Assembly (NCBI GenBank): GCA_027452165.1
Contig: DAIDGX010000005.1
Location: forward strand, 1 to 64,000
Origin: Vulcanimicrobiota bacterium
GTDB lineage: Bacteria; Vulcanimicrobiota; Vulcanimicrobiia; Vulcanimicrobiales; Vulcanimicrobiaceae
Reading direction: 5' to 3'
Length of the DNA stretch: 64,000 bases
Shown here: positions 49,283 to 58,165 of the stretch, one piece after another
Numbering within the stretch: position 1 is the stretch's first letter
Layout of the letters: every line of letters starts with the position of its first letter
The notes under the pieces: model-generated
Databases searched by the model: none
The model's input: the letters and a program-made list of their open reading frames with translations, nothing else
Told to the model about the DNA's origin: nothing
Position numbers and translations under genes: made by a program

Positions 49283-49598
49283 GAACGCTTCTCATGGCAC
49301 CAGGAGTTTTCGACGCTTAGCGACGAAATTCCGTAGCGCACTTTCGCTGATCGAAAGCGATGCATCGTTACGATCGCGCAGTACGTCCCCGATCCGCTTG
49401 GCGGTAATCTTCGGCGTCGATCCAAGCAGAGCGACGATTACCTCGCACCTTGCGCGCGTAGTGCGGCGCCGTTGGAGCGGCGTTCTCCTTGGCGTACTTT
49501 CGCACCGTGTTGGGCGAGAGCCGCAGTTCGCGCGCTACCCGTTTGATAAGCTCGCCGTCGCCTGCGACGCGTCGCCGAATGACCTCCCATTGATCCAT
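49271..49598 (-). pseudogene. IS21-family transposase (IstA) N-terminal fragment, frameshifted
   Basis: The ATG at 49598 (AAGGAG site upstream) begins DQWEVIRRRVAGDGELIKRVAREL, an IstA N-terminus with an HTH ending in LSPNTVRKY. After KVRG the match shifts frame into VIVALLGSTPKITAKRIGDVL, continues to ALRNFVAKRRK, and then meets an in-frame TGA before EAFVR. At least one frameshift and one stop make it non-functional. No istB is found. Confidence 0.82.
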
Positions 49599-49740
49599 AG
49601 AAACCACTCCTTTGGGCACCCTCTCGATGGCGTTTGGTTCCGTGCAAACCGTCATTCGAGAGGGGGGGCCTCGTTTAGTTGGAAGGGTTCAAATTTCGGG
49701 AGCACAGGGGTTCAAAAGCTCGCGACCGTTACAAAGCGCA

Positions 49741-49918: not shown

Positions 49919-50626
49919 CTATCCGCATAGACGAAAAAACGCTCGAAACAAGTTGCTCGCCGGCTTACAAAACGGCGCGGCCATGTTATAGCGAATTTTC
50001 ACTCCCGCAACACGATCTCTCTGCGAGATTATCCACATCACTTGGTTCTTCTTCGTACTGATCGCAAGGGTTCTTGGCCCAAGCCAATGGACTTTAGGAA
50101 CCTCCACCCAAGACCCCCAATCTGGGATGTAGTTAAGCGCGAGGTCGTGGATGCTCGGCGGACTCTTTGTGTTATGTTGCACAAATACAAAATTATCCTG
50201 GCTTCCGTCGTACGTTCCGGTACATCCAATAACGCGAACGGTAGCGACGTATCGACCTCCCGGGCTTGGAATCTTCCATTGATTCACGCTGCACGGAGGA
50301 ACCCCGGCGGCCGGCGGACTGAGCGGATCCTGAACAAGGCCTTGAATATCCCAAAAAAGATTTGGAGAAACGACCAAAACGACGGCCAACGCTGCGATAC
50401 TGCATGCGACGGAGACAAGCTTCAACAGTATGCTTCGCTTTGATGTGCTTTTGCGCTTCCAAAGGCGAGCCGCAATGAAGTATAGCACGACGCCTATAAA
50501 AATTGCGCCATCCGGAGTAAACGCGGGCCATACCACGGCAAGCCCCAAATCAATTGCAATCCATCCTAACGGGAAAATCGCAATTGCCATCATGCGACGC
50601 CGCACGATATTTTTTTCAAGCTTCAT
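49919..50626 (-). CDS. Membrane protein downstream of RHS gene; candidate immunity protein
   Basis: A 235-residue protein with three hydrophobic segments in its first 100 residues (about 12-30, 36-53, 65-87) and a periplasmic-looking C-terminal domain containing VRVIGCTGTYDGSQDNFVF and DWGSWVEVPKVHWLGPR. Its AGGGG ribosome site overlaps the RHS stop, seven bases before the ATG at 50626, so it is coupled to the RHS gene. It is clearly AT-richer than the region around it. Position, small size and atypical composition are what polymorphic-toxin immunity genes show. No family recognised. Confidence 0.6.
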   Translation of the reverse strand: MKLEKNIVRRRMMAIAIFPLGWIAIDLGLAVVWPAFTPDGAIFIGVVLYFIAARLWKRKSTSKRSILLKLVSVACSIAALAVVLVVSPNLFWDIQGLVQDPLSPPAAGVPPCSVNQWKIPSPGGRYVATVRVIGCTGTYDGSQDNFVFVQHNTKSPPSIHDLALNYIPDWGSWVEVPKVHWLGPRTLAISTKKNQVMWIISQRDRVAGVKIRYNMAAPFCKPASNLFRAFFRLCG

Positions 50627-50635
50627 AAACATCCC

Positions 50636-53600
50636 CTAAAACATTGAGGACGGGCAATGATGCAATGCCCATTGCATCCCCTTCGCGACGTTTTCGGCAT
50701 CGACTTTGTAAAGTTTCGTATGTGCGCCACCCCTAAAGAGGTTTTTCGTCCCATCCTCATATTTCAGGTAAGAGTACACGAACGTATCGAGCTCCGATTG
50801 CGGGTATTTCGCTGTTGCCCCGAGCACGCCGATGCCAAAATTAGACTCAGTTCTGTATGCGCGGCCCTTTAGCTGATAATTCAGCGCGCCGTGGTGGGAT
50901 TCCAACATATAAAGCGTGATGAGACCAAGGGCGGTGTTGCTTCCGATTATTCTTATAAGTACACCGTCGCGCGCGTTGGTTGACAACGACGACCCGGGAA
51001 GCATGGGGAACCATGTTGGGTCGGGGCCGCAGAAGTTTCGGCGCCTTTGAGTCCGTGGGTGGACATGCAGCGTTGCGATGGTACGGAGACTTTGACCTGG
51101 CCCGGAAACTTCGAAGTTGATCAGCAGGGCCGGATCCAGGTAATCCGCCCAAGGATCCCACGGATACTGAGCCGGCTCTCGGTAGATGGTCGAAGGCGTC
51201 TGCGTTGGCTGGCAGTCATTCTTCCCAGCGGCAGAATCAAATTGCATCGATTCGCCTGGCGGGCACTGTCCGCTCGCTACGTCAAACGGCGTCAAGTTCC
51301 GCGTTCCTGTAGCGAGTGTTCCCAGCCCGCCTACTTGTGTGCCCGAACTCGAAATGACGGCCGTCGAGTATGGGCTAAAGCCGCCCACCGTTTGCGGGGT
51401 CATCCACTGACCTGTTGTGGGATTGACCGGCCGCGTACCCTCGAAGGTATATGGCCCGAGCACGAAGCCGCCGGAGCCGTCAGCGTAAATGCCGTAACCA
51501 CCTGGCGCCACCGCACCGCCAACGTTAGGGTCCGAGCCCACGTTCGGGTAGTAGCTTGCCGTTGGGCCGGCGATCTCGTTCACCGAGGAACCCGCTGCAT
51601 TGTGCTGGCTAGAAAGCGCGCCCGTTGGGCCGTAGTCGTTTACGCCTAATCCACAACTCCAGTCCTCACCTGTCGCGCATAGGGTTCCAAACGTAGCGAG
51701 GTTCTCGATGTTCTCTTGCAGCAGTTTTCCATTTCCATCGCTTGTAAATAAAAGCTTGTCCCCAAGCCAGTGCATGGACATCGTAGTTCCGGGCAGTCCG
51801 CCGACCATCCCAAAGTTCTGGTCGGTGTACACGCGCGGTTGCCCTGAGGCTCCATACGCGTAGCTGAACATGCCGCCGATTCCTAGCATTTGATTGGCGG
51901 CGTCATAACTGACGGGGTTGCTGCTAAGGCTTGGCGGGCTACCGTAATTGCCACCGGGCTCGCAGTCGGCGTACCGGCCGTCTGCGTCGTAGCCGCAAAT
52001 CCCGTTTTCGCCCGTCACGGTCAGCGCATTACTGATCAGTGATGCTCCCGTTTTGGGGTCGACGTCCCCTCCAAGCGAGGTTCCATATTCGTAGCTTATC
52101 GCGGCCGTCGTCGTTCCCGAGGCGTCAGTGCCCGACTCTTTGGCCAACTCTCCGCGGACATTATAGCTAAACGCAACGCTCGTAACATCCGTCGCCGTCG
52201 GCGAATAGCCTTGCATTCCCACGTTTGCACTGCTCATCGCACCTTCGGCGTCGTGCGTCATGTTTGAGTATATCAGCCCGGAAGGCATCGTTAACGAGTT
52301 CATTTCACCGAATGCGTTGTACGTAACAGTCTCTGGCTCTAAGGTTCGCGCCGAAACCGATGCATTTGCCGCGATCGTACGACCGGAGAAAGGATCCGTT
52401 TCGGAGATTGGCCTACCGGCTGAGCTGTAAGCCCAGGTAAAGGCTCCCGTAAAGAAATTCCCGGTGAGCGACTCCCGCAACCCGTCGGAACGATAGGTGT
52501 AATCCATCGTTTGCGTATTTGGGAACGCAACCGCCGAAATACTCATCGAGCTGCGCAGGCCATTCGGGTAATACGTCATCGCCACCGACTCGGGCGACGT
52601 GCCTCCGGGGACCAGACCTTCTTGATACGCCGTCACGTCGCCAGTCGCGTTGTACGCATACATATCTGTTCCATCGACAGACGACGCGATTGCGGTCACT
52701 CGACCATCCGGATCGTATTCATACGACTCACTCGGCGTACCATCGCTATAGCTCACCGATGCGAGTTCACCATCTGCGGTATAGGTTGGAGTCGTCGTCA
52801 CTCCCATCGGGTCGGTACCCGCCGTCAGGAAGCCGTTCTCGCCACCTTGATCGTAGGTCTCATGCCACGTTTGTAATGCACCAAATGGTTGATACGCATA
52901 TTTTTCGATCGTTCGATTGAGCGTGTCATAGGCGGCACCGGCGACGTCGATCCACGTGCATGGGCTACCTCCAATCTCGCATCGCTGGGTCTTAAAAAGG
53001 TTGCCGTGCGCCAAAAAGCCCGCTGCCGTGCCTATTTGAAGTCCGTAGCCATCTTGCGTCAAGTCGTACAAAAAGCGCTTACGGCTCGGTACGCCGTTGT
53101 CGACCGTCCTATCTGACGGCTGCTCGCTTTCAACCAGACGGTCGTCGCCGTCGTACCAGAAGGCGCTCGTTCCGCCCGTGCACGATGCAGTTGTAGTGCA
53201 CCCATAATGAGTAATCTCGCTGATCGTATTTCCGTCCGCATCGTACGCAAACGTTGTCGCGTCCTGGTCAGGAGCGTATCCTGGATTACACTGACCCGCG
53301 GTGCCACCTCCGACGAGCGCTCGCTCCGACGGGCTTTCTGTCGCACTCATGCTGCCATCTGGATTATACCAGGCGCAGATTGTCGGGTTCCCCGGGTCCG
53401 AGTCACTAGCCGCTACGCGCCTATTCATTGCGTCATACGAAAACGCAGCTGTACCTTCTCCGTTGCTATAGCTAACAATATTGCCGGTTGCCGAATAGGT
53501 TATCGACTCGCTCGATGTCACCGTTTGGCTCGTCCCGTTAGCGGTAGACTCATTGATAGGCGCGCCTGTGATAGACGTAGGAAGGCCAAAATCGCCGTCT

Positions 53601-55759
53601 TCCTGAGCGGCATTGTAGCCGATTGCCCTCGTATAGCCAAGAGCGGACTTGGTCTCAACGAGGTATCCGTATGGCTCTGCGGCATCCGAATAGTCGTATT
53701 GATGGGTCGAAAACGCACCTGTTCCGCTGGTCGGACATGCCGTCGCTCCCGTTTGCCAAATATATTCAGGATCGCACGACGACAGGAGGTTGTTGTATTG
53801 ATCGTAGGCATAACGCGCGATAGGGCGCCCAAGGCTGCCGTTTGCGGTCACCCATGGCCCTTCCGACCAAATCGTGTTGCCGTTGGCGTCGTAGCCGTAA
53901 TCGGTTTCGGCGGGTTGATTGGTATGCGGATCGATATTGGGTCCGGCCGCCGAGATCAGATCGTTATTCGCATCCCATCCGGCGCTCGTGATCAACCACT
54001 GCGAACCCGTCCAGTGCGACGTTTTCGTCACCCGGAACGCAGAATCGTAGTCCCATCCGGCCGCGTGCCCGTCGCTATCACTTAGGCTGGTTTGCCCGGA
54101 GTTGTATGCGATGTTGATCGTCTTTAGGACGCCGGCGTTATTCGTGTTGTTGATCATCGCCGGTTGCAGCAGCGTGTTCGTCCCATCGTTCGGAATAAAA
54201 TTCCAATAGCCGATGTATTGAATGCTGGTCGGCGCCGTAGCAACCGACGAGCCGTAGTGAAAGCCAACGTAGGCGCCGCCGGAACCCGTGGCATCCGGGC
54301 CGCCCCAGCTCATCGTCCAACGCGGGCTATCGGCCCACTGCATCACGTGGTTGCCCGCGTATGCGTAGCGGTGGTGGATATGCGTATCGTCGCCACAGGT
54401 CGCCACAGGATTCACGGAGTGGTCAATCGAGCCGTTTCCCGGTGTACAGACATCCGTCAGGTCACCGGTTGCATCGTAGGCATAGTGAACGATTTGGCCA
54501 TCGGGGCGTACGATATCAAGAAGCTCCGTATACGCCCCAAATTTCGCGAAATTTAAGGTTAGCGACTGGCCGTCGCTATGGCTGGCAACGATCTGTGTCA
54601 CGTTCTGAACGTTGCTAGAATCGCCATTCTGCCACGAATACGTGAAGGCGATGTGATTGTTGTGATTGCGAGCGATGATCTCACTCAGACGGCCTGCGTA
54701 GCCCCACGTTGACGCGGTGATGCAGTCCCCCATCGTCGGGCGCCAGAAGTAGTAAATCGTTCCCGTCTTTTTCGTCCAGTAATAGCCGCATCCACCGTCG
54801 GATGCAAGGGACGTCCCCTGCATGCCCGGCGGGGGCGTCCATCCACCGCTGCCGTTGGCCGTATAGTCGTACCGCGCGCCGTCGATGTCGTACACACTCA
54901 TCACGTTCTGCGCAGCGTTGTACGCTAGATGCGCATCAAACGTATTCGTCCAGCCGTTACCGAAAAGACTCGGCGTTGCACCGTCACTACCCGCAGCGTC
55001 GTGATCGCTTGCCGAGTTGTAGGTACGCCGGAAGGCAAGGTCGATGCCGCGCTCGGCGATATCCACGTCGGTCTCCTGCACGAGCAAATTGCCCGTGCCC
55101 ACGTTGAGCATCCATGAACCGGCCCCAGGAATCGTACCCGTTTCATACGTCCACCACCGATTGATACCGGTCGTGGCCATTGGCAGCGTGCCCGTGGGTG
55201 CCACGGTTGCAACCGGCGTCGGCGTCACCACGATGGGCGGCGCGGTCGGCACGGGCGTTGCCGTTGGCGCGAGGGTCGGGTGAGGAGTTGGCGGCGGGGG
55301 GATCGTCCGAAACGGCGGACGCGGCGTGGGAAAGCGCACGTACATCGCGTTGGCCACGTTCGTAACGGGCGCGCCATGTCGCTCCGCCAGCGGATCACGA
55401 TGCGGTACACCGATCGCGTTCGGCGATCGCATGCCAAAGTCGAGTTTGCGCATGCCGTATAGGAAACGTGGCATCAGCGTGTTCGTGCGAAGCGTCGCTT
55501 GCCTCGTGACCGTCGCCATGCCCCGCTGCGGGATCTGTGGTGCCGGTGCGTGCATCTCATCGTACAAACTTGCGCGCCCCATGAGCAGCGCAAAGATCCA
55601 TGTCTGCTCGATCGCGCCAACGACCGGCGTCATGACGCTGTCAAGCCCCGTAGCAAGGGTAGCAGCCTCCGTTGGGCCGTTTTTTGCTATCGGTGCGGCC
55701 ATTGCAGACGATTGCAAGAACATGAGCGTGACGATGACGAGAGCGATGATACGACGCAT
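50636..55759 (-). CDS. Sec-exported RHS/YD-repeat protein with variable C-terminal tip
   Basis: A 1707-residue protein: signal peptide (ALVIVTLMFLQSSAMAAP), a Pro/Thr-rich linker (about 150-195), a DUF6531-like opening with NLLVQETDVDIAERGIDLAFRRTYNS, then more than 25 YD repeats (YDATGDLTDV, YDANGNTIWS, YDAMNRRVAA, YDADGNTISE, YDPDGRVTAI). The shell ends near GTRPVNPTTGQWMTP, equivalent to the usual GRFLxPD. The last 170 residues differ: ALNYQLKGRAYRTESNFGIG, GATAKYPQSELDTFVYSYL, then NVAKGMQWALHHC, faintly like type-44 polymorphic toxins. It lies 21 bp after a secretin gene. Confidence 0.85.
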   Translation of the reverse strand: MRRIIALVIVTLMFLQSSAMAAPIAKNGPTEAATLATGLDSVMTPVVGAIEQTWIFALLMGRASLYDEMHAPAPQIPQRGMATVTRQATLRTNTLMPRFLYGMRKLDFGMRSPNAIGVPHRDPLAERHGAPVTNVANAMYVRFPTPRPPFRTIPPPPTPHPTLAPTATPVPTAPPIVVTPTPVATVAPTGTLPMATTGINRWWTYETGTIPGAGSWMLNVGTGNLLVQETDVDIAERGIDLAFRRTYNSASDHDAAGSDGATPSLFGNGWTNTFDAHLAYNAAQNVMSVYDIDGARYDYTANGSGGWTPPPGMQGTSLASDGGCGYYWTKKTGTIYYFWRPTMGDCITASTWGYAGRLSEIIARNHNNHIAFTYSWQNGDSSNVQNVTQIVASHSDGQSLTLNFAKFGAYTELLDIVRPDGQIVHYAYDATGDLTDVCTPGNGSIDHSVNPVATCGDDTHIHHRYAYAGNHVMQWADSPRWTMSWGGPDATGSGGAYVGFHYGSSVATAPTSIQYIGYWNFIPNDGTNTLLQPAMINNTNNAGVLKTINIAYNSGQTSLSDSDGHAAGWDYDSAFRVTKTSHWTGSQWLITSAGWDANNDLISAAGPNIDPHTNQPAETDYGYDANGNTIWSEGPWVTANGSLGRPIARYAYDQYNNLLSSCDPEYIWQTGATACPTSGTGAFSTHQYDYSDAAEPYGYLVETKSALGYTRAIGYNAAQEDGDFGLPTSITGAPINESTANGTSQTVTSSESITYSATGNIVSYSNGEGTAAFSYDAMNRRVAASDSDPGNPTICAWYNPDGSMSATESPSERALVGGGTAGQCNPGYAPDQDATTFAYDADGNTISEITHYGCTTTASCTGGTSAFWYDGDDRLVESEQPSDRTVDNGVPSRKRFLYDLTQDGYGLQIGTAAGFLAHGNLFKTQRCEIGGSPCTWIDVAGAAYDTLNRTIEKYAYQPFGALQTWHETYDQGGENGFLTAGTDPMGVTTTPTYTADGELASVSYSDGTPSESYEYDPDGRVTAIASSVDGTDMYAYNATGDVTAYQEGLVPGGTSPESVAMTYYPNGLRSSMSISAVAFPNTQTMDYTYRSDGLRESLTGNFFTGAFTWAYSSAGRPISETDPFSGRTIAANASVSARTLEPETVTYNAFGEMNSLTMPSGLIYSNMTHDAEGAMSSANVGMQGYSPTATDVTSVAFSYNVRGELAKESGTDASGTTTAAISYEYGTSLGGDVDPKTGASLISNALTVTGENGICGYDADGRYADCEPGGNYGSPPSLSSNPVSYDAANQMLGIGGMFSYAYGASGQPRVYTDQNFGMVGGLPGTTMSMHWLGDKLLFTSDGNGKLLQENIENLATFGTLCATGEDWSCGLGVNDYGPTGALSSQHNAAGSSVNEIAGPTASYYPNVGSDPNVGGAVAPGGYGIYADGSGGFVLGPYTFEGTRPVNPTTGQWMTPQTVGGFSPYSTAVISSSGTQVGGLGTLATGTRNLTPFDVASGQCPPGESMQFDSAAGKNDCQPTQTPSTIYREPAQYPWDPWADYLDPALLINFEVSGPGQSLRTIATLHVHPRTQRRRNFCGPDPTWFPMLPGSSLSTNARDGVLIRIIGSNTALGLITLYMLESHHGALNYQLKGRAYRTESNFGIGVLGATAKYPQSELDTFVYSYLKYEDGTKNLFRGGAHTKLYKVDAENVAKGMQWALHHCPSSMF

Positions 55760-55780
55760 GAAGTGCTTTCCACCCGTGGG

Positions 55781-58165
55781 TTAGTGATGTAAGGGATTGA
55801 CCGGTATTTGGATCGATGCGGCGACGCCGTCCGCACGAAAGGCGGAAAGCGTCAAAAACGTGGTTTGCTGAGCACTGCTCAGCGAAAGCTGCGACGACGA
55901 AAATGTCAGCGCCCATTTCCCAGGGCTGACCGCTCGCGCCGCCACGGCGCGACCGAGCGTACCGATCGTTACGCGCGTGACGTTGGTCGTGGTCACCGTG
56001 TCGAGCGTCATCGGCGCGCCCGGCGTGAAGACGGTCGGCTGCAAGCGCGCGTAGAAAATCTGCGGCGAGTCCTGCGGCCCAGCATAGTTGTTCTGCGGCG
56101 CCGTGCCGTACTCGAAAGCGTTCGATGCGGCGAAGGCCGAGGGCGTGGGCTCGGGTAGCGGCGTCGTGAACGGCCGCGGCGTGTAGAGCACCGGCGCGGG
56201 AAGCGGCGTCGATGGCAGTGGCGTTGGGCGCATCGTTGCAAGCATCGCATCGGGGGGCAACGTCGGCAGAGGCGCCGCCGTTGGGAGACCCATCGTCGCG
56301 TCCGGCGGCGGTGCGCTCTGGCCCGGCTTCAAGATGTGCGGCGTCACCACGATCACAAGCTCGTTGCGCGTGATGTTCACGTTATTGTCGCGAAAGAGCC
56401 CGCCGATCAACGGAAGTTGCCCGAGAATCGGAATCACCGATGCGCTCTGCTGATCGGCCTCTTGGATCAAGCCGCCGATCACGAGCGTTTGATTGTTGTG
56501 CAGACTTACCGTCGTCTGCGTGTCGCGCGTGGCAATCTGTGGCACACCGCTCGAACTGATACCCTCGAGGCTATTCACCACCGGATGCAGCGACACGATC
56601 ACGTTGTTCTCGGCACTCACTTCCGGCGTGATGTCCAGCGTGACACCGGTATTGAACGTTTGAATCTGTTGCGTGACCGGCGTCCCTACCCCGCCGCCCG
56701 TGGTCGTCAGGATCGCAAGCGTATCGCCGGCGCGAATCGTTGCCGTGTGGCCTGAGAGCGTCGCGATGCGCGGGTCGGCAAGCACCCGCCCATGGCCCTT
56801 TTGGATTAACAGATTCAACTGCGCCGTCAGCGAAAGCGCCGTACGCGTAAGCGGTTGCAATCGCCCGATACGCCCAGGAAGACCCGATGGATCGGGCGTC
56901 GGTTGAATCTCGCTGTACGTCGTGCTCAACACCGCGTTGGGCATCTCGATGCCAACGTTCTTGGCGTCGTTCTCGTCGATTTCAAGCACCTCGGTGTCGA
57001 GCACCACCTGCGGCGGCGTGACGTCGAGCTGCTTGATAAGATTCTTCGCCAGCCGAATACTCTCGGGATCGCCTGCCAAGATGATCTCATCGGAGTTCGC
57101 CGGCACCGTGACGTGCAGTGATGGCGCCATCTGCCCAAGCGCCTGCGTCACCGCCGTCGCGATATCTTGTGCCGTCGTCGAAGGTGCGCTGTTCTGCCCC
57201 GGAATCGCCGCCTGAAGATGCACCACCTCAACGTTGCCCGCGCCATAGGCCGTTCCACCCGACGCTCCAGCGCCTCCGGCGCCTTGTACGGCGGCTCCAT
57301 CGAGTTGCGCGATGGCCGCGGCAATGCGTTCGTGCTGCGCTGCCGTTGCGTACACCGAAATAGCGTTCAAATCAGTATCTACGGTGACCGTGACATCCGG
57401 ATAGGTACGCTTGATCAAGTCCGCGACCGACGCCGCATCCACGCTCTTCGGGCGATAGATGTCCGTATATCGCGAACCAAACGGCGGCACGTCCAGACGG
57501 GCGGCAAGCGCTTTCGCCTGCGCAACCGCGCTCGGATCGCCACTGATGAGCAGCGATGATCCCGATACGTCGATATGGGCGTCACGCACTTCGTGGGCAA
57601 CCGCGCGGGCAAGCGCGCGGGGAACCGCGCGCTCCACGCGCACCGTCTCCACTGGCGCGGCCGTCGCGGGAGCCACACTCGGAGGCGTCGCGTCGAGCGA
57701 TGAGATCAGCGATTTGATCTGCGTTGCATCTTCCGGTATCGCGCGCAGCAAAATGCTATTCTTGCTCGCTACCCGCATCGTCGCGCGCGGAAACAGCGGC
57801 GCTATGCGATCAATCACGACTTGCGGCTTCGCAACTTGCAGCGATACGATCTCCGTCGTCGGCGTGGTCGGGTTCTTTACGTCAATCCCTTGCACCACAC
57901 TACGAATCGAATCAACGTCGTTGGGGTTGCCCAGCACCACAATCGCGTTCGCATGGGTATCCACACGAACGCGCACGTGCGGATAGAGCTGATGCACGAT
58001 CGCCGACGCACGGCTCGCTGAGATAACATTGACCTGGATGACCGCGGCGACCGGTGATGGCTTGGGTAGCGGCGCAGCACCAAACGCGCCGCTGGGAATG
58101 ATCCCAACGGCGCATGCGACACCCATAACGACGGCAAGCAGCCGCGATAACGGCCGCTCGCGCAT
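55781..58165 (-). CDS. Secretin (GspD/PilQ superfamily) with C-terminal extension
   Basis: A 794-residue outer-membrane pore protein. After a signal peptide come about five N-domain repeats, each ending in a V-x-Q/K-x-LD-type helix (near residues 85, 155, 220, 285, 380), then the secretin domain (about 390-610) closed by VPILGQLPLIGGLFR...ELVIVVTPHIL. A Pro/Thr linker and an extra Ig-like domain of about 90 residues (TVFTPGAPMTLDTVTTTNV) follow, which ordinary secretins lack. No ATPase, pseudopilin or pilotin gene is nearby. The ATG at 58165 starts the signal peptide; a GTG at 58183 is possible. Confidence 0.9.
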   Translation of the reverse strand: MRERPLSRLLAVVMGVACAVGIIPSGAFGAAPLPKPSPVAAVIQVNVISASRASAIVHQLYPHVRVRVDTHANAIVVLGNPNDVDSIRSVVQGIDVKNPTTPTTEIVSLQVAKPQVVIDRIAPLFPRATMRVASKNSILLRAIPEDATQIKSLISSLDATPPSVAPATAAPVETVRVERAVPRALARAVAHEVRDAHIDVSGSSLLISGDPSAVAQAKALAARLDVPPFGSRYTDIYRPKSVDAASVADLIKRTYPDVTVTVDTDLNAISVYATAAQHERIAAAIAQLDGAAVQGAGGAGASGGTAYGAGNVEVVHLQAAIPGQNSAPSTTAQDIATAVTQALGQMAPSLHVTVPANSDEIILAGDPESIRLAKNLIKQLDVTPPQVVLDTEVLEIDENDAKNVGIEMPNAVLSTTYSEIQPTPDPSGLPGRIGRLQPLTRTALSLTAQLNLLIQKGHGRVLADPRIATLSGHTATIRAGDTLAILTTTGGGVGTPVTQQIQTFNTGVTLDITPEVSAENNVIVSLHPVVNSLEGISSSGVPQIATRDTQTTVSLHNNQTLVIGGLIQEADQQSASVIPILGQLPLIGGLFRDNNVNITRNELVIVVTPHILKPGQSAPPPDATMGLPTAAPLPTLPPDAMLATMRPTPLPSTPLPAPVLYTPRPFTTPLPEPTPSAFAASNAFEYGTAPQNNYAGPQDSPQIFYARLQPTVFTPGAPMTLDTVTTTNVTRVTIGTLGRAVAARAVSPGKWALTFSSSQLSLSSAQQTTFLTLSAFRADGVAASIQIPVNPLHH

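Follow-up and report, generated by a model that had tools for sequence, protein, structure and literature searches.

The window analysed here, a stretch of 64,000 nucleotides of contig DAIDGX010000005.1 from a Vulcanimicrobiota bacterium (assembly GCA_027452165.1, 2.6 Mb in 27 contigs), holds three tightly packed genes on the minus strand encoding a secretin, a large RHS protein and a small membrane protein (Table 1). The secretin and RHS genes are separated by 21 bp, and the RHS and membrane protein genes by 3 bp. Translation of the secretin probably begins at the ATG at 58165, the first codon of a signal peptide. On Pfam the secretin displays the Secretin domain PF00263 over residues 459-619 (5.6e-41, 140 bits for a cut-off of 27.5) and three Secretin_N (PF03958) stretches, the RHS protein displays DUF6531 (2.2e-12) and RHS repeats (3.5e-17), and the membrane protein (237 aa) gives no match. 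No pilus or type II secretion system (T2SS) gene was seen in the list of open reading frames (ORFs) around the secretin. A first-pass annotation of this DNA had described a Sec-exported RHS protein with a secretin gene 21 bp upstream and no T2SS or type IV pilus (T4P) genes around, and the ORFs, gaps and domains bear this out. The proline/threonine-rich linkers it had placed in both proteins were also found (in the RHS protein at about residues 145-192), and the additional C-terminal immunoglobulin (Ig)-like domain it had given to the secretin corresponds to a beta domain modelled with confidence by AlphaFold.

Table 1. Features of the secretin-RHS locus in the window (pLDDT, predicted local distance difference test).
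Feature	Position	Strand	Basis or remark
Secretin, RHS-associated subfamily, 800 aa	55781..58183	-	PF00263, 3x PF03958; relatives often beside RHS
Five N1-like beta-alpha-beta ring domains, residues 45-386, no N0	57026..58051	-	AlphaFold2; N0 profile
Secretin outer-membrane barrel domain, residues 392-618	56330..57010	-	Pfam PF00263, AlphaFold
Pro-rich linker, residues 619-689	56117..56329	-	Sequence; low pLDDT; kept in subfamily
C-terminal Ig-like beta domain, residues 690-800	55784..56116	-	All-beta; pLDDT mostly 77-96
RHS polymorphic toxin, 1707 aa	50636..55759	-	DUF6531, RHS_repeat; relatives share core, differ C-terminally
RHS signal peptide, about residues 1-22	55694..55759	-	By inspection
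MHAPxP motif, RHS N-terminal region	55538..55555	-	Comparison of paired RHS
Pro/Thr-rich linker ahead of RHS core	55184..55327	-	Sequence
RHS core (YD-repeat shell), end TGQWMTPQ	51380..55105	-	Comparison with relatives
Variable C-terminal region, predicted toxin, no known family	50639..51379	-	Weak or short matches; no Pfam
Predicted immunity protein, N-terminal hydrophobic helices and soluble part	49919..50632	-	Hydropathy; orphan copy

Across 99 genomes of its family, the window secretin has about 50 relatives at 40-67% identity, often several per genome. When these loci are counted together with two from a genome outside the family (G114), 25 near-complete secretins have an RHS gene within 2.5 kb, 10 are clearly without one and nine are cut by contig ends. 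Four further linked pairs with partial or split sequences (L089, L095, L104 and L105) bring the total to 29, spread over 21 genomes, 12 genera and two families. Most pairs are divergent and six are tandem, and the order differs even between the window secretin and L049, the relative nearest to it at 67% identity. Furthermore, within the one family, a DUF6531 gene is found no more than 6 kb away at 25 of 52 subfamily loci compared to 0 of 95 other secretins (Fisher p=4e-14), and 24 of the 99 genomes carry both genes, 10 the secretin only, 8 the RHS gene only and 57 neither (p=7e-9), both p-values being overstated since related genomes are counted as independent. The spread over genera together with the orientation changes is a stronger argument than these p-values. 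Two RHS loci scored as unlinked, L112 and L124, retain C-terminal remnants of such a secretin. In a scan of 84,980 species the subfamily was found in Ca. Eremiobacterota, a sparsely studied phylum, the other matches being remote secretins of Bordetella and Omnitrophota (26-33% identity); the assembly with L147 and L160, recorded as Rhodospirillales, is placed here in the family of the window (G065). Hence the genome search that the first-pass annotation had proposed finds the pair again and again, in both orientations and in this subfamily only, and the refuting check it had named, for such secretins consistently beside pilus genes with no RHS gene, came out in its favour.

The window RHS protein joins a YD-repeat core and DUF6531 to a variable C-terminus, followed by a predicted immunity gene, the toxicity likewise being predicted; this is the composition of an RHS/YD polymorphic toxin. 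A core end of the DPxG...DPxG type is a feature of most, not all, RHS toxins. The window core end (51380-51420) reads TPQTVGG with no DPSG, whereas relatives keep PDxYxG...DPSG, and its class assignment rests on the core and DUF6531 because core-end aspartates are not universal in RHS toxins. Given these missing aspartates, self-cleavage of the toxin end may have been lost. For the toxin end itself no family and no Pfam match were found, and a search of the phylum gave only short or weak matches.

The RHS relatives have the core in common and differ in their C-termini, and signal-peptide-like stretches are present at their N-termini whether they are linked to a secretin or not. Among the subfamily loci one C-terminus is an HNH nuclease, and others weakly match CHAP/NlpC and Peptidase_M91 (effector protein). 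The divergence of this cargo is large compared to that of the channel. Indeed, where two secretins share 80-95% identity, their RHS cores share only 25-53% and the last 150 residues are largely unrelated, as in L107/L108 (secretins 95%, cores 39%) and L083/L084 (91% and 35%). Such a constant channel with exchangeable cargo is what polymorphic toxins sharing one exporter show. Two other signals were set aside. The MHAPxP motif is present in RHS proteins paired with secretins that have no N0 domain and absent in those paired with N0-bearing ones, but this covariation, although complete in the scored pairs, could result from one change on the tree and does not count as independent evidence. Likewise, the secretin and RHS-core trees are correlated (Mantel r 0.48, p 1e-4), a signal that shared ancestry could give as well and that was rejected as evidence of co-evolution.

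The first-pass annotation had listed the membrane protein as part of the locus, and immunity explains it better than a role in export. On contig C3 of the same genome (G000:C3, about 107430-108290; L172:772-1629), a 43-residue remnant of the window toxin end, about 60% identical, is followed by an intact ORF that matches the membrane protein at 63% identity over 229 residues. At its opposite end the remnant is truncated by an IS3-like transposase, and another transposase lies further out. Immunity genes typically persist in this way after the toxin gene beside them has been lost. With such an orphan copy still placed behind what is left of the same toxin end, immunity is the best prediction for the function of the membrane protein.

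The AlphaFold2 model of the secretin (25 aligned sequences, mean pLDDT 70) places the five N1-like domains first, then the barrel domain, a disordered proline-rich linker and the C-terminal beta domain. The C-terminal barrel after N domains, which defines the secretin superfamily, is supported by Pfam, AlphaFold and structure matches alike, and the closest solved folds in the PDB are GspD, PilQ and InvG. GspD is also the best NCBIfam match, at 200 bits, below the 351 bits of the GspD equivalog TIGR02517. Like GspD of the T2SS, the window protein combines ring domains with a secretin barrel; unlike it, it has five N1-like domains, a proline-rich linker and the Ig-like domain. The N0 domain is the one through which GspD and PilQ contact inner-membrane platforms. 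A profile search found no N0 in the window secretin and did find it in other members, some of them linked to RHS genes. Neither a gsp operon at the window locus nor GspC (T2SSC) in any of the 99 genomes was found, and the inspected neighbourhoods gave no co-encoded ATPase, platform or pilins of T2SS or T4P type, the ATPases of the window genome lying on another contig. The proline-rich linker is kept across the subfamily and the Ig-like domain is found in most members, with or without RHS genes. The role of specific RHS dock that the first-pass annotation had suggested for the Ig-like domain is thus not supported and was set aside, since RHS-less members carry the same domain.

Based on these observations, we consider it probable that the window carries a polymorphic-toxin locus which co-encodes an RHS toxin with an outer-membrane channel and an immunity protein of its own. 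According to this model, which is drawn from sequence, the RHS protein would cross the inner membrane via Sec, as its signal peptide suggests, and once in the periplasm its YD repeats would form a shell around the variable C-terminal toxin, as expected from the family. The adjacent secretin, with its long periplasmic ring stack, would then take the RHS protein and pass or display it across the outer membrane, a role suggested by the conserved linkage, while the membrane protein would protect the producer, as the orphan copy supports. The channel would remain constant while the cargo is exchanged, with no T2SS-type inner-membrane partner alongside. As a linkage the secretin-RHS arrangement is strongly supported; as an export system, with predicted passage through the secretin, it is moderately supported. 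Of the Sec plus dedicated secretin route proposed in the first-pass annotation, the linkage part therefore stands, given its spread, its restriction to the subfamily, the absence of type VI secretion system (T6SS) genes and GspC and the diverged cargo, and the export part stays at the level of a prediction.

The arrangement is new, and no RHS-secretin system was found in the open-access literature, subscription literature being outside the scope. In two-partner secretion and contact-dependent inhibition (CDI; CdiB-CdiA), a dedicated outer-membrane protein is encoded beside a large Sec-exported toxin and an immunity gene. The window locus resembles this gene set by analogy, but its channel is a multimeric secretin instead of an Omp85 barrel and its cargo would be a folded RHS shell instead of a beta-helix filament. 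The Rhs proteins delivered by T6SS (PAAR-Rhs, Tse15 type) share the RHS core, the variable C-terminal toxin and the downstream immunity gene, whereas the window protein starts with a signal peptide and DUF6531. Delivery by T6SS was rejected, since the sheath gene VipB is absent from the 99 genomes. The Sec-type Rhs of Myxococcus (Rhs4/5), WapA and teneurin-like proteins are also large RHS/YD toxins that have a signal peptide and polymorphic C-termini (PMC10433427, PMC13018210), but no dedicated outer-membrane channel has been described for them, while the window RHS gene adjoins that of a secretin. Teneurin-like toxins are without obvious delivery machinery (PMC13018210). The recurrent pairing thus points to a dedicated route out of two-membraned cells for a toxin class with no known exit, and the locus offers a concrete exporter candidate, a single channel gene beside the toxin gene.

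A variant of the co-encoded toxin-channel reading, which we hold as a tentative possibility, is that the secretin holds the RHS protein at the outer membrane, as an anchor or a gate, until contact is made, instead of secreting it freely. Myxobacterial Sec-type Rhs are thought to be surface-located and to deliver their toxins in a CDI-like manner, with no route named in the review (PMC10433427), and the extra Ig-like domain and proline-rich linkers would suit such a display. Against this, RHS-less members carry the Ig-like domain too.

A second explanation, which we judge unlikely, is use in trans, with the RHS-linked secretin borrowing the motor and pseudopilus of a T4P or Tad system encoded elsewhere. 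The secretins of other systems need inner-membrane motors, the window genome has a T4P-type cluster with PilB and PilT on contig C21, and some RHS-linked secretins keep N0. However, these PilB and PilT are the only T2SSE-type ATPases of the window genome, whereas in G069 (98% complete) the sole strong ATPase match belongs to a Tad cluster, similar to one in G012. The pilus and Tad clusters each have their own secretin or secretin-like gene, the window secretin has no N0, the usual platform contact, and GspC is absent from the 99 genomes. Because one carrier has a type IV pilus and another Tad, the carriers share no visible common motor, in a comparison where draft genomes may miss genes and the ATPase search in other carriers used a strict threshold. 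We also raise, as a speculative proposal, a motor-free two-step system in which Sec and a free-standing secretin would export a folded, toxin-filled RHS shell, with cargo swapped behind the channel. If true, this would be, to our knowledge, the first secretin without a T2SS, type III secretion system, T4P, Tad or phage assembly motor, and a channel working without an ATPase would change the view of what secretins need.

It is improbable that RHS genes and the subfamily secretin merely share hypervariable islands. Transposase remnants nearby, the transposase-cut copy and the RHS and secretin genes that are unlinked speak for such a co-location, but none of the other secretins shows RHS proximity, immediate adjacency is kept in 12 genera despite orientation changes, and the secretin sequence is conserved while the cargo changes. 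A relic of a filamentous phage is hardly credible and was rejected: the match of the barrel to PHROG 1012 (M13 protein IV, 8e-49) concerns a domain that all secretins share, no phage gene (inovirus zot, coat) was recognised among the neighbours in a search that was not exhaustive, the clades span genera and the secretin is closer to GspD.

Several observations weigh against a dedicated RHS exporter. No RHS gene adjoins ten subfamily secretins whose flanks are long enough to show one, half the DUF6531 sites lie away from any subfamily secretin, and a few RHS-bearing genomes have no such secretin. Moreover, one RHS-less clade, with the N0 domain present, lies beside secA (L053, L054 and L057; g37 genomes) and another (L061, L075, L076 and L077) near a large subtilase. 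Since such clades exist, the subfamily may also serve other large exported proteins or RHS proteins encoded elsewhere. At the four loci of the latter clade, the subtilase-like protein of 1522-1634 aa belongs to a conserved cluster that also encodes small exported proteins, possibly another secretin-cargo pairing.

Other genes accompany the secretin at some loci, and none of them adjoins the window pair. An SLT lytic transglycosylase lies directly downstream of the secretin in three g32 loci (L069, L072 and L073, with a Pfam match on L073), and TPR proteins are found near five loci, one carrying a LuxR-type domain. A lipoprotein of ~200 aa with an invariant histidine lies directly downstream in about ten loci of several genera (L079, L080, L081, L083, L084, L085, L107, L108, L138 and L147). 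Its fold weakly resembles cupredoxin in a low-confidence model (mean pLDDT 51), and related lipoproteins are common in family f3. At L089 (4822-7562) the secretin gene beside the RHS gene is found as two overlapping ORFs, an apparent frameshift, and at L094 (7191-8543) an ORF with RHS-like repeats runs in frame into secretin N domains, in a rearranged or chimeric locus. In the window, directly after the immunity gene, a short minus-strand ORF (49368-49655) encodes a helix-turn-helix with weak matches to transposase N-termini, which suggests insertion-sequence debris.
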